Shown: piece by piece, positions 8,650 through 58,797 of the stretch
Numbering within the stretch: position 1 is the stretch's first letter
Layout: the number at the start of each line of letters is the position of its first letter
From: an uncultured Lentisphaerota bacterium
Lineage (GTDB): Bacteria; Verrucomicrobiota; Kiritimatiellia; CAIQIC01
Assembly: GCA_903889245.1 (NCBI GenBank)
Contig: CAISWQ010000056.1
Location: forward strand, 124,001 to 188,000
Direction: 5' to 3'
Length of the DNA: 64,000 nucleotides
Translations under genes and position numbers: made by a program
Notes under the pieces: model-generated
What the model saw: the letters and a program-made list of their open reading frames with translations, nothing else
What the model was told of the DNA's origin: nothing
Database searches by the model: none

Positions 8650-11072
8650 ACCGCCGTTTTCCAAGCCTTGGAAACATGTGGGCCGGATTTTTCCAAGCCT
8701 TGGAAAAATTCATGCCTCGCTTTTCCAAGCCTTGGAAGCCTGCACAAAAGCAAACGAAGGGAACGAAGTTCTTTGTTCACTTGGTTGCCTTCTGTTCAAG
8801 CAAATCTTCGCGGGCTTGGCGTCTTGGCGGTTCAATTTTGTTGCTTACGATTTTGGGCTTCGCCGTCGCGTGGTTCGCGTGTCCGTTCCCGCGCGGGTTG
8901 CTGGCGCAGTATCCGGCGGCGGTGGTGCTATGCGACCGCGAGGGTACGCCACTGCGCGTCCGGCTCGGCCCGCGCGACCAGGACTGCCGCCCGATCTACC
9001 AGCCGCACCGCGAGGACTGGATCGTCAAGGCGATCGTCGCCGCCGAGGATCGCCGCTTCTGGGAGCATCACGGCGTGGATCCGGCCGCGGTGTTGCGTGC
9101 GGCGTGGCAGGACGCCACGCACCTGCGCAAAGTCTCCGGCGCCTCGACGCTTTCGATGCAGGTGATCCGCCTCGCGCAGCCGCGCTCGCGCACGGTGTTC
9201 GCAAAAATCACCGAGGCCTTCCGCGCCCTGCAGATGGAGCGGCAACTCTCGAAGGACGAAATCCTGACGCAGTATCTGAACCGCGCGCCGTTCGGCGCGA
9301 ACCTCGTCGGCATCGAGGCGGCAAGCCGCCGCTACTTTGGCAAAGGGCCGGAGGATTTGAGCCTCGCCGAGGCCGCGCTGCTCGCGGGCATCCCGCAGTC
9401 GCCGGCGCGGCTGCGGCCCGACCGGCGGCTGAAAAATGCGCAGCAGCGGCAGGCCTATGTGCTCGAGCGCATGGTGGCCGCCGGCCTGATCAGCGAGGAA
9501 CAGCGCCGGACAGCGCAGGCGCAACAGATCGTGCTGCACCGCGAGACGCGCCCGTTCCGCGCGCCGCATTTCTGCGACCTTGCCGAGGCGCGGCTGACCG
9601 AGACCAGTTTCGCGAACAGAAACGAGGGGCCGACCACTGATATCGCCGTCCGCACAACGCTCGATCCCAAGTGGCAGCGCGTCGCCGAGGAAGCGCTGCG
9701 GCGGCACGCCGCCGAGCTGGCGACCGGCGAGATCCGCGGCGGCGCGGTGGTGATCCTCGATGTGAAGTCCGGTGCGGTGCGCGCGCTGGTCGGCTCGCCG
9801 GATTTTGCCGACACGCGGAACCAGGGACAGGTCAATGCCGCGCTCGCGCCGCGCGCGGCGGGCTCGACGCTCAAGCCGTTCGCCTTCGCGCTCGCTTTCG
9901 ACCGCGGGCTGGCGACGCCGGGCACGGTGCTCGCCGACGTGCCGCGCAACTTCGGTGACTACCGGCCGGACAACTTCGACAAACATTTCCGCGGCCTGCT
10001 CTCGGCGCGCGACTCGCTGATCCTCTCGCTCAACCTGCCGGCGCTGGAGATTGAACACACGGTCGGCCAGCCGGTCTTCTATCGCGCGCTCAAGCAGCTC
10101 GGGCTCGAAAGCATCACGAAGCCGGCGACGCATTACGGCATGGGGCTGGTGCTCGGCAACGCCGAGGTGCGGCTGCTGGATTTGGCCAACGCCTACGCAT
10201 GCCTCGCGCGCGGCGGCGAGTGGCGGCCGGTACGCGTGTTCGAGGACGCGCCCGCAGCGGCGGGTCGCAAAGTGTTTTCGCCAGAGGCGTGCTGGCTGGT
10301 CGCCGACGCGCTCGGCGGGCAGGAGCGCGCGCTCGACGCGACCGGCCACGCCGCCGATGTCCGCCTGCCGCCGCTCGCGTGGAAGACGGGTACTTCGTCG
10401 GGCTTCCACGATGCGTGGACCGTGGCGTTCAACTCCGAAGTCGTCATCGGCGTCTGGGCGGGCAATCCCGATGGTGCGGGTAGCGACCTGCTTGTGGGCA
10501 AGAAGGTGGCCGCGCCGGTGGTCTGGGAAATTTTCCGCCGGCTCTATCCCGATAACGACGGGCCGTGGTTCGAGCGGCCGGCGGGCGTCGTGCAGCGCGA
10601 AGTCTGCGCGACGAGCGGCTGCGCGCCGGGTCCGTTCTGCCGCGACAAGGTCGAGGACTGGAGCATCAGCGGCGTGACGAGCTGCCGCGCGTGCGGCGTG
10701 CATGTACGCGCGCCCGATGCCGGCGGCAAGCTGGCGGAGGCGTGGTCACCGGAAGTCGCGCAGTTCCTCGCGCGCCAGCGCGCGGCGAGTGCGCCCGCCC
10801 CGGCGAAGGTTGTGCGCGTGCGGATCACCTCGCCGGCGCCGGGCAGTTCGTTCCGTTTGCTTGAGGACCTCGCGGGCACGGAGCAGCGCCTTTCGTTGAG
10901 CGCCGCCGGGGTGGGGGGCGCCGGCGCGCTGCACTGGTTCGACAACAACCGCTACCTGGGTGCGGCGCGCGGCGGCGAGCCGCTGTTCTGGCCGCTGGCG
11001 CGCGGCGCGCACCAGTTCGTCGTCTGCGACGCTGCCGGGCACAGCGACCGCGTGGCGATCACTGTGGATTAA
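8646..11072 (+). CDS. pbpC: Penicillin-binding protein 1C (peptidoglycan glycosyltransferase/transpeptidase)
   Basis: This bifunctional class A PBP polymerises and cross-links peptidoglycan at the outer face of the inner membrane. I chose the GTG at 8646 because it overlaps the previous stop and has GGAGG 10 nt upstream. The first 55 residues are encoded by three palindromes plus a repeat copy, and an ATG at 8712 is the alternative start. A membrane helix (ILLLTILGFAVAWF) follows. The GT51 domain has AAEDRRFWEHHGVD (E134) and GASTLSMQVIRL. The transpeptidase has S407-T-L-K410, SLN and K580-T-G-T-S. A C-terminal PBP1C-specific beta domain (from about residue 715) completes the protein. Together with the macroglobulin it probably repairs the wall after attack. 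Confidence 0.95.
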   Translation: MNRRFPSLGNMWAGFFQALEKFMPRFSKPWKPAQKQTKGTKFFVHLVAFCSSKSSRAWRLGGSILLLTILGFAVAWFACPFPRGLLAQYPAAVVLCDREGTPLRVRLGPRDQDCRPIYQPHREDWIVKAIVAAEDRRFWEHHGVDPAAVLRAAWQDATHLRKVSGASTLSMQVIRLAQPRSRTVFAKITEAFRALQMERQLSKDEILTQYLNRAPFGANLVGIEAASRRYFGKGPEDLSLAEAALLAGIPQSPARLRPDRRLKNAQQRQAYVLERMVAAGLISEEQRRTAQAQQIVLHRETRPFRAPHFCDLAEARLTETSFANRNEGPTTDIAVRTTLDPKWQRVAEEALRRHAAELATGEIRGGAVVILDVKSGAVRALVGSPDFADTRNQGQVNAALAPRAAGSTLKPFAFALAFDRGLATPGTVLADVPRNFGDYRPDNFDKHFRGLLSARDSLILSLNLPALEIEHTVGQPVFYRALKQLGLESITKPATHYGMGLVLGNAEVRLLDLANAYACLARGGEWRPVRVFEDAPAAAGRKVFSPEACWLVADALGGQERALDATGHAADVRLPPLAWKTGTSSGFHDAWTVAFNSEVVIGVWAGNPDGAGSDLLVGKKVAAPVVWEIFRRLYPDNDGPWFERPAGVVQREVCATSGCAPGPFCRDKVEDWSISGVTSCRACGVHVRAPDAGGKLAEAWSPEVAQFLARQRAASAPAPAKVVRVRITSPAPGSSFRLLEDLAGTEQRLSLSAAGVGGAGALHWFDNNRYLGAARGGEPLFWPLARGAHQFVVCDAAGHSDRVAITVD
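8657..8739. repeat. Palindrome array A1 (3 units) inside the pbpC 5' coding region
   Basis: Three near-perfect copies of TTTTCCAAGCCTTGGAAAA start at 8657, 8689 and 8721, exactly 32 bp apart, with unrelated 13-14-nt spacers. Read in the pbpC frame they give FPSLGN, FFQALEK and FSKPWK, so the same palindrome is read in three frames. Confidence 0.95.
8741..8842. repeat. Copy 2 of the ~100-bp interspersed repeat
   Basis: This copy starts TGCACAAAAGCAAACGAAGG and ends CTTGGCGGTTCAATTTTGTT. Its reverse complement contains GAACCGCCAAGACGCCAAG, a type of sequence seen dispersed in many environmental bacterial genomes. A shorter relative lies at 49752-49796. It encodes PBP1C residues up to the membrane helix. 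Confidence 0.7.
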
Positions 11073-11077
11073 CAAGC

Positions 11078-11103
11078 GCCGGGTCAGAGACCCGGCCTAC
11101 AGG
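11078..11103. repeat. Hairpin repeat after pbpC (GCGCCGGGTC/GACCCGGC type)
   Basis: GCCGGGTC and GACCCGGC form a hairpin six nt after the pbpC stop, ending in CCTACAGG. This links it to the TGTAGGC.. repeat family at 2.2-2.5 kb. There is no T-tract, so it is more likely a repeat than a terminator. Confidence 0.6.
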
Positions 11104-58714: not shown

Positions 58715-58717
58715 GGC

Positions 58718-58797
58718 TTTCCAGGGCTTGGGAAACGCGCGGCGAAATTTTCCAATCCTTGGAAAACCACGGCCGCCCGGTTCCCATCCTTGGAAAA
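58718..58797. repeat. Palindrome array A13 (3 units)
   Basis: Units start at 58718, 58748 and 58781 (spacing 30 and 33): TTTCCAGGGCTTGGGAAA, TTTTCCAATCCTTGGAAAA, TTCCCATCCTTGGAAAA. The array starts 4 nt after the phosphomannomutase stop and ends at the terminator of the converging gene. Confidence 0.94.

Follow-up and report, generated by a model that had tools for sequence, protein, structure and literature searches.

Palindromes in three-turn arrays in Kiritimatiellia genomes, putative operators of an oligomeric DNA-binding protein

Introduction

In the genome of an uncultured Kiritimatiellia bacterium (G000) a palindrome recurs in short rows, and the neighbouring copies within a row are separated by practically the same distance. 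What could read these rows, and what would they serve? No earlier description of such arrays was found in the titles and abstract beginnings of the searched literature, outside of which most subscription papers lie.

Results

Palindrome arrays in the window

The window, i.e. the whole 64-kb stretch of DNA analysed, holds 14 arrays with 34 sites and 20 neighbour steps (Table 1). The steps were 31 bp in twelve cases, 32 bp in seven and 30 bp in one (n = 20). Allowing up to 3 mismatches, the palindrome TTTTCCAAGCCTTGGAAAA gave 42 strand-wise matches, representing 24 distinct places, while the mean expected by chance was 0.01 (100 dinucleotide shuffles of the window). The first-pass annotation had reported about 33 copies in 13 clusters with steps of 30-33 bp. 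All 13 clusters were recovered, with 32 sites counted in them, and the constant period was confirmed; however, several single distances were off by 1-2 bp, the 33 bp step is absent from the window, and both a 14th array (62456/62487) and a lone near-match (19040) had been overlooked.

Table 1. Palindrome arrays of the window and their surroundings.
Position	Strand	Content	Steps (bp)	Location
8657..8739	.	3 palindromes	32, 32	7 bp past stop of ORF 8104-8649
11593..11643	.	2 palindromes	32	within 5' end of ORF 11590-12366, which looks signal-peptide-like by eye
13940..13990	.	2 palindromes	32	within predicted ORF 13563-14339
18051..18101	.	2 palindromes	32	within 3' end of nickel-insertion (larC-like) ORF 16834-18126
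19040..19058	.	lone degenerate site, possibly chance		in glycosyltransferase ORF
20489..20538	.	2 palindromes	31	between ORFs, ~65 bp ahead of tRNA gene 20604-20692
23019..23068	.	2 palindromes	31	intergenic, 27 bp past a stop
28305..28355	.	2 palindromes	32	8 bp past a stop
36414..36493	.	3 palindromes	31, 30	intergenic
40614..40726	.	4 palindromes	31, 32, 31	intergenic
44557..44637	.	3 palindromes	31, 31	convergent gap, 1 bp past NAGLU ORF 41970-44555
46317..46366	.	degenerate pair	31	15 bp upstream of ORF 44703-46301 (-)
55235..55284	.	2 palindromes	31	divergent gap
58717..58797	.	3 palindromes	31, 31	2 bp past a stop
62456..62505	.	14th array, 2 degenerate sites	31	within ORF 62240-62989 (ABC-ATPase-like, by eye)

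A three-turn period throughout the genome

The exact 15-mer TTCCAAGCCTTGGAA is present in 883 copies genome-wide, on many contigs of G000 (none for the reversed control), and the pattern TTCC-N7-GGAA, which is looser than the full palindrome, forms 1,048 pairs at 30-33 bp in this source genome. In 461 kb of G000 the nearest-neighbour distances of sites with at least 11 of 14 matches, taken with no spacing rule, were 30 bp (3), 31 bp (81) and 32 bp (51), and no other peak appeared below 150 bp, where each other distance was represented at most once. This distance plot had been proposed as a refutation test, as had the search for one duplicated block; the peak at 31/32 bp is sharp and no duplicated block accounts for the arrays of G000. 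Since the mean step of 31.35 bp corresponds to 10.45 bp per turn, a three-turn spacing fits. In G001 the step was 32 bp in 214 of 267 cases and the pair was the main unit (the related genomes G001-G003 were scored with the G000 consensus). The longest rows reached 7 sites. A weak site (8-10 of 14 matches) was counted only if another site lay 30-33 bp away, with a chance of 2.7% per side; this rule underlies the window, covariation, density, placement, evenness, synteny, hairpin, spacer, tag and largest-array results, and the 31/32 peak in the 461 kb appears without it as well.

Independent half-sites and free spacers

In the source genus the site has the form TTCCAAG-s-CTTGGAA, a 15-bp dyad inside an A/T-rich 19-bp frame. 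The dyads are near-perfect and neighbouring copies could pair with each other, as would be expected if they acted as hairpins in RNA or DNA (terminators, RNase sites or cruciforms). However, at positions 3-8 of the 19-mer 205 departures in G000 were one-sided and 7 two-sided, about 10 of the latter being expected, and none of the neighbour-to-neighbour compensations was significant (the highest z, 1.6, was that of the central base). Since the half-site changes are uncompensated, hairpins are not supported. The fixed spacer of 12-13 bp, the A-runs rather than U-runs at the ends, and the Rfam matches of the window, which consist of one tRNA only, also speak against them, and we consider hairpin function practically negligible as an explanation. 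At two positions neighbouring sites of G000 have variants in common (z about 3).

The spacers in G000 are 12-13 bp long and mostly unrelated in sequence, thus the palindromes outlive the remaining sequence of the arrays. The expectation of free spacers combined with a fixed phase was borne out, while the GCGRAAT-like core described at some spacer ends amounts to a weak preference at most: an oriented motif search detected a weak preference beyond column composition and no clear motif (the controls were run with fewer restarts). In G041 and G008 the spacers recur from array to array, which indicates copying in some lineages.

Comparison with known repeat families

The recurring spacers of G041 and G008 would suit a decaying mobile repeat of the REP/BIME/REPIN or MITE type that owed its spread to a transposase, as would the many palindromic, intergenic copies, often lying at stops, and the two RAYT-family (Y1_Tnp) matches in G000. 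Most REPs bear GTAG or CGTC tags (PMC3733652). Such a tag is unpaired and sits at one stem-loop end. GTAG was found at 7 of 495 sites in G000 and 21 of 660 in G001, compared with 3.0% and 4.2% of random intergenic places, and CGTC at 8.1% and 8.5% of the sites, hardly above the 6.9% and 7.0% of the random places. Y1_Tnp (PF01797), the family of the TnpA_REP-type transposases for which the first-pass annotation had suggested a search, is present in 274 of 332 class genomes, array-less ones included, and gave no match in at least five array-bearing drafts (G041, G132, G130, G020, G054). One of the two G000 loci has no palindrome in the flanks examined, and at the other there is a single exact copy besides a weak match. 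The RAYT/REP origin was rejected, since the tag test, the transposase tracking and the hairpin covariation were all negative. Thus the arrays resemble REP-type elements as numerous short extragenic palindromes often placed past stops, but differ in the lack of tag enrichment, of RAYT tracking and, in G000, of conserved linkers; their strict 31/32 phase and even spacing would be unexpected for drifting insertions. Altogether a mobile repeat appears improbable.

Many copies, even spacing and lineage specificity would also fit a DNA-uptake or chromosome-segregation signal (DUS/USS-like). Uptake signals are single and directional and are not known to be phased, whereas the arrays here are dyads in exact three-turn rows, and such a signal is very improbable. 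A lineage-specific palindrome over-represented genome-wide is known from cyanobacteria in HIP1 (PMC4390886). HIP1 differs from the present arrays in being 8 bp long and methyltransferase-linked. To our knowledge, it forms no phased intergenic arrays.

Placement relative to genes

Arrays with at least two sites were found at a density of 0.85-1.17 per kb between genes and 0.039 per kb in coding sequences in G000, and at 1.18-2.3 and 0.067 per kb, respectively, in G001, in a non-random sample of contigs. Genes were called with our own codon-score caller, by which 15 of 93 classified arrays in G000 and 55 of 235 in G001 fall into predicted coding sequences. In the sampled stretches there is approximately one array per 3-5 kb.

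Between codirectional genes the arrays are shifted towards the upstream stop (mean relative positions of 0.35 in G000 and 0.41 in G001; p 0.003 and 0.016), and in convergent gaps 24 of 33 arrays (G001) and 5 of 10 (G000) overlap a stop or have one no more than 10 bp away. Stops have arrays nearby at least as often as starts do. This bias could also reflect a role in transcript ends, and a protein bound to the arrays may act as a roadblock, so that transcription is ended or insulated at transcription-unit borders. A trade-off with terminator-like hairpins, detected by a simple finder that recognizes few, was suggested in G000, where hairpins were present in 1 of 10 convergent gaps with an array vs 7 of 14 without (p 0.08), and in 0 of 16 vs 5 of 23 divergent gaps (p 0.07); however, it was seen neither in G001 nor in the codirectional gaps of either genome. 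Moreover, divergent gaps hold no gene end, yet they carry arrays with a frequency (16/43 in G000, 34/87 in G001) similar to that of codirectional gaps (48/135 and 114/293). We therefore regard the roadblock explanation as unlikely. The terminator role was rejected, as the hairpins had no significant relation to the arrays, the tendency to fewer hairpins being confined to the convergent and divergent gaps of G000. Since divergent gaps are similarly occupied and the link with hairpins is not significant, a terminator alone does not account for the arrays, as had been argued from the window.

The arrays are spaced more evenly than a random choice of gaps would give: the coefficient of variation was 0.62 in G000 (0.84-0.85 for random choice) and 0.72 in G001 (0.88-0.92). 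At most 1 of 2,000 simulations was as even as the observed arrangement, and none of 2,000 in the enlarged G000 sample. In G000 the effect is located below 1.5 kb and in the coefficient of variation; distances below 1 kb were not, by themselves, significantly scarce (231 and 358 of 2,000 simulations were as low). By eye, the genes flanking the nine largest arrays seem to have no function in common, and no shared regulon is evident. In the sampled stretches of the two genomes the arrays have the even spread, with no evident regulon, that is expected of a nucleoid-associated or chromosome-organising site family.

Conservation and drift across the class

Adjacent orthologous gene pairs of G000 and G001 had an array in both genomes in 6 cases, in neither in 52, and no pair was discordant; for long gaps alone the values were 5, 22 and 0 (Fisher 1.2e-5). 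These counts exclude pairs differing in relative orientation, none of which occurred in the comparison of G000/G001-G003. In the arrays kept, the spacers are unrelated (by eye) and the site numbers partly differ; the array at 28305..28355, for instance, retains its place in G001 with an unrelated spacer. The array at 11593..11643 has a counterpart at the orthologous place of G001 but not of G003, and the 3' end of larC is overlapped by an exact pair in G001 too, with none there in G002 or G003. Among the comparable array places of G000, 1 of 3 was kept in G002 and 0 of 2 in G003; one comparable array place of G001 is empty in G003 and one of its single sites is empty in G002. G002, most pieces of which were chosen because they hold a pair, and G003 contain fewer arrays than G000 and G001.

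The proposed scan of the related genomes revealed TTCC-N7-GGAA-type pairs at the array spacing in 115 of 345 class genomes, with up to 1,358 pairs, and almost none in the other classes of the phylum, where a narrower pattern was scanned. The half-sites drift across the lineages around the core TTCCA-N5-TGGAA (TTCCAAG, TTCCAA, TTCCAT, TTCCAY or TTCCAR, depending on the family), while the period stays constant at 30-32 bp. A genus-restricted system, as first expected, was therefore too narrow: the trait is class-wide and its specificity drifts. The sister genus g2, with 1 and 2 pairs, is practically array-free, so the array system is dispensable. Other palindromes gave no clear peak at 30-33 bp in array-poor families (17 stretches of at most 20 kb, taken from 16 genomes that have 0-1 pairs); of the three positive controls G073 and G313 gave a peak and G009 did not in 20 kb.

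Candidate binding proteins

The arrays might be operators of a global regulator of the Lrp/AsnC or NrdR kind with a very large regulon, the tandem dyads being bound by a tetramer or octamer. Lrp-type sites occupy one side of the helix with a spacing of two or three helical turns (PMC2995911), BarR binds 15-bp semipalindromes (PMC10201364), operator rows of Lrp/AsnC proteins wrap the DNA (both sources), and the NrdR tetramer occupies two 16-bp palindromes 31-32 bp apart from centre to centre, i.e. boxes 15-16 bp apart, in a helix-phase dependent manner (PMC12051234). The present arrays are similar to the former in having 15-bp semipalindromes in one-face rows, here at three turns, and to NrdR box pairs in their 15-bp dyads (15/16 bp in NrdR) and 31-32 bp steps. 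The operators of Lrp/AsnC proteins differ in being gene-specific and degenerate, while NrdR boxes stand ahead of a small number of RNR operons and have another sequence, in contrast to about 1,000 pairs in rows of up to 7 here. The NrdR consensus differs from the array palindrome, and the neighbours of the nine largest arrays are unrelated genes by eye.

An Lrp homologue was found in 88 of 90 genomes with at least 5 pairs (both numbers counted by eye), G308 and G311 having none among the matches listed. However, Lrp is present in 273 and NrdR in 297 of 332 class genomes, array-less families included; full-length Lrp occurs in the array-less f12, f14, f17, f24, f27 and f6 and in g2, and the single array-less f34 genome inspected has a RAM-only form. 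NrdR, a near-universal single-copy gene in the class, had no match in at least five array-bearing drafts among those listed (G014, G025, G026, G101, G127). Lrp/AsnC, which the geometry had suggested, was disfavoured as the binder since its class-wide presence does not appear to track the arrays, and NrdR was rejected since it is present irrespective of them. About 1,000 pairs are far above the usual size of a regulon, no evident one emerges from the genes next to the largest arrays, and the proximity to stops is at least equal to that to starts. Operators of such a regulator thus seem a rather unlikely explanation.

Discussion

The proposal of the first-pass annotation that a protein binds one DNA face at a three-turn phase is consistent with the independent half-sites, the unrelated spacers and the position and period kept between G000 and G001, while its genus restriction and the RAYT link were not upheld. 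On balance we lean towards the arrays being operators of a putative oligomeric DNA-binding protein, the role of which would be architectural or that of an insulator. We infer the protein, its oligomeric state and this role: each 15-bp dyad would be the duplex site of a dimer, and adjacent dimers, three turns apart on one face of the DNA, would be in contact over the 12-13 bp spacer. A pair, or as many as 7 sites in a row, might then nucleate an oligomer. Standing about once per 3-5 kb and mostly at the boundaries of transcription units, the oligomers would anchor, loop or insulate segments of the chromosome rather than govern one regulon, and might in this way contribute to its organisation or partitioning. 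Palindromes dispersed over the chromosome are recognized by Noc, MatP and SlmA, which have architectural or cell-cycle roles. Their sites are tens of single ones and are not known to form three-turn rows, and the Noc site has only TTTCC/GGAAA in common with the array palindrome.

It is possible, though we put it forward tentatively, that the class has its own insulator or chromatin system, in which one oligomeric protein reads the arrays at transcription-unit borders, approximately every 3-5 kb. The drifting half-site specificity of this protein would have dragged tens to hundreds of sites along, and some lineages would have lost the system wholesale.

Should the role be architectural, this little-known class of bacteria would possess a sequence-coded chromosome scaffold, the anchor points of which can be read from the genome. 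In that case the binder, the phase rule and the effects on transcription and folding would be directly testable, and the joint change of the half-site and many sites would amount to a natural experiment in the co-evolution of a DNA-binding protein and a whole genome.

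Phased palindromes in the window and in the genome

The 19-mer TTTTCCAAGCCTTGGAAAA, with up to 3 mismatches allowed, gave 42 strand-wise matches in the window, corresponding to 24 distinct places, while 0.01 was expected from shuffled sequence. With weaker neighbours grouped in, 34 sites in 14 arrays and one isolated near-match were obtained. All 13 clusters of the first-pass annotation were found again, together with one further array. The 30-33 bp steps given there held for 30-32 bp (31 bp in 12, 32 bp in 7 and 30 bp in 1 of 20 steps), and the values of 33 bp turned out to be miscounts. 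Tandem Repeats Finder detected just two of the window arrays, since the spacers differ.

In the 5.26 Mb draft genome to which the window belongs (G000), 456 + 427 copies of the exact 15-mer TTCCAAGCCTTGGAA and 1,048 TTCC-N7-GGAA pairs at 30-33 bp were counted, and both controls (reversed in case of the 15-mer) gave 0. The proposed plot of neighbour distances had a sharp 31/32 bp peak: in 461 kb of G000, where every site matching 11 or more of 14 positions was taken and no spacing rule was applied, 31 bp occurred 81, 32 bp 51 and 30 bp 3 times, any other distance below 150 bp at most once, and no two-turn or four-turn peak was present. At least two sites were found in 94 of the 116 clusters of this sample (maximum five) and in 162 of 198 over 874 kb (maximum seven). 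In the relative G001, 214 of 267 steps were 32 bp long, and 218 of the 241 multi-site arrays consisted of just two sites.

Three GTAGCGGC...GCCGCTAC inverted pairs of the window, REPIN-like and GTAG-tagged, are distinct from the arrays; two of them directly adjoin one. GTAGCGGC occurred 13 times in the window (2.75 expected); over 874 kb, however, its 87 copies did not exceed the 146 of a rearranged control octamer. The arrays themselves are not tagged REP elements.

Coordinates of the features (window positions unless an L stretch, from another sequence, is named)
Feature	Position	Remark
Alpha-2-macroglobulin-like large bacterial ORF	2567-7984	1805 aa
Array	8657	detected by Tandem Repeats Finder
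Array	11593	inside predicted CDS
larC-like gene	16834-18126	nickel-insertion ORF
Array	18051	inside predicted CDS, 3' end of larC-like gene
Inverted pair	28357-28394	REPIN-like
Inverted pair	40728-40774	REPIN-like
Array	44558	detected by Tandem Repeats Finder
Inverted pair	46647-46673	REPIN-like
Array	62456-62505	absent from first-pass annotation
Short tandem repeat	63653-63724	7/14/21-bp
Lrp/AsnC, G000	L166:7961-8440	reference protein
Two-site array, G073	L184:3465-3511	in lrp open frame
Lrp/AsnC, G182	L185:3014-3349	RAM-only

Sequence constraint

In the column profiles TTCC/GGAA was almost invariant (92-100%), the inner AA/TT reached about 90% and the centre was C/G, with A/T at the site flanks and GC-rich spacers. 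Departures at positions 3-8 of the 19-mer were one-sided in 205 and two-sided in 7 cases (about 10 two-sided expected from shuffling), and hairpin compensation between neighbouring copies was not significant (top z 1.6, at the central base). Since the half-site substitutions are unmatched in the other half, the pattern is not that of a hairpin; it is the one that duplex recognition by a symmetric protein would leave. Neighbouring sites had common variants at two positions (z about 3) and their spacers a slight excess of similarity, thus it is likely that arrays grew in part through copying or that certain spacers are weakly preferred.

Position relative to genes and along the chromosome

By our own gene calls, the density of arrays with at least two sites was about 18- to 34-fold higher in intergenic than in genic DNA (per kb, 0.85-1.17 vs 0.039 in G000 and 1.18-2.3 vs 0.067 in G001). 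They lay at stops, in convergent gaps and also inside predicted CDS (15 of 93 classified in G000, 55 of 235 in G001), as had been described. In codirectional gaps they were biased toward the upstream stop: 25 of 52 arrays in G000 and 41 of 111 in G001 started within 10 bp of it or overlapped it, while 2 and 20, respectively, were equally near the downstream start. The arrays may be roadblocks at transcript ends; codirectional and divergent gaps had comparable densities (convergent gaps of G001 higher), and no significant relation with terminator-like hairpins was found, the array-bearing gaps of G000 tending to fewer of them (convergent p 0.08, divergent p 0.07).

Compared with equal numbers of gaps drawn at random (2,000 simulations), inter-array distances were more even both in G000 (CV 0.62 vs 0.84-0.85) and G001 (0.72 vs 0.88-0.92), the observed CV being reached in at most 1 of 2,000 simulations and in none for the larger G000 sample. 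Distances below 1.5 kb were too few in G000 (at most 2 of 2,000); the shortage below 1 kb was not significant (231 and 358 of 2,000). Arrays followed one another at a median of 4.1-4.7 kb in G000; in G001 the median was 3.3 kb.

Among gaps comparable between G000 and G001 (adjacent orthologous gene pairs; orthologues from 126 reciprocal best hits with 76% identity on average), 6 held arrays in the two genomes, 52 were empty in the two and 0 were discordant; for long gaps the values were 5, 22 and 0 (Fisher 1.2e-5). The larC 3' end is likewise overlain by an exact pair in G001. Some of the kept arrays differed in how many sites they hold (4 vs 2, 5 vs 4), and by eye the spacers appeared unrelated (five pairs). 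The relatives G002 and G003 had fewer arrays and kept 1 of 3 and 0 of 2 G000 places, that of larC being empty in both; one G001 array place was empty in G003 and one G001 single site in G002.

Spread and candidate binding proteins

TTCC-N7-GGAA pairs at 30-33 bp were present in 115 of 345 genomes of the class Kiritimatiellia (maximum 1,358, in G073), with reversed controls of 0 except one match each in G036, G194, G274 and G326. The two sister-genus genomes had 1 and 2 pairs, families f5, f12, f26 and f35 zero and f34 almost zero. This looser scan covers the class; the phylum-wide scan, made with the narrower TTCCAA-N3-TTGGAA pair only, gave matches in 38 of 387 genomes, of which G379 (2 pairs) alone lies outside the class. 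Named records with the exact pair pattern (at least 68 stretches) were uncultured Kiritimatiellales/Kiritimatiellae, 'Lentisphaerae', 'Verrucomicrobia' and other MAGs. Among the matches listed, the inner bases vary by lineage: TTCCAAG-s-CTTGGAA in the genus of G000, TTCCAA-N3-TTGGAA in f2, f3, part of f4 and G041, TTCCATAsCGTGGAA in G008, TTCCAY-N3-RTGGAA in G011, TTCCAT-N3-ATGGAA in G051 and TTCCAR-N3-YTGGAA in G087.

Spacers recur between arrays in G041 and G008, thus block copying happens there. Unlike in G000, long arrays at separate loci of G041 have a common spacer series, and despite this no PF01797 match was found in this draft (88% complete). The link to a TnpA_REP-type transposase suggested in the first-pass annotation did not hold, since presence of Y1_Tnp does not track the arrays.

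Of 2.9 million viral contigs, 17 matched the TTCCA-N5-TGGAA pair, in 18 stretches; about a dozen of these resemble true arrays by eye and may belong to phages or prophages of the class. The predicted viral contigs L210, L209, L217 and L221 (IMG/VR) have similarly built multi-site arrays, which may be either phage DNA or flanking host DNA.

By analogy, the geometry points to tandem dyads occupied by a complex of four or more subunits. The boxes of NrdR are described as having a centre-to-centre distance of 31-32 bp (PMC12051234), Lrp sites as lying two or three turns apart (PMC2995911) and those of BarR as 15-bp semipalindromes (PMC10201364). NrdR (297 of 332 class genomes) and Lrp/AsnC (273 of 332) are near-universal and do not track the arrays. 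Of the 90 genomes that carry 5 or more pairs, G308 and G311 were the only ones with no Lrp match, which is consistent with Lrp as a necessary partner; full-length Lrp also occurs in several array-less families. In the one f34 genome read (G182), Lrp/AsnC lacks the N-terminal HTH of the G000 protein, and several further f34 matches had short open frames. A two-site array of G073 (TTCCAATGATTGGAA / TTCCAATCATTGGAA, 32 bp apart) lies within the 5' part of the long open frame of lrp and precedes the conserved start.

The feature is real, large-scale, lineage-specific and under constraint. In geometry it works like the tandem operators of NrdR or Lrp, and its distribution is like that of site families which organise the nucleoid; it would be at most a putative member of any of these. 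The arrays are very likely operators of a putative oligomeric DNA-binding protein. They may serve one large regulon. Their placement, even, regulon-free and at boundaries, is best read as pointing to an architectural or insulating role, and with slightly better than even confidence we regard them as operator arrays through which such a protein would act in this role.
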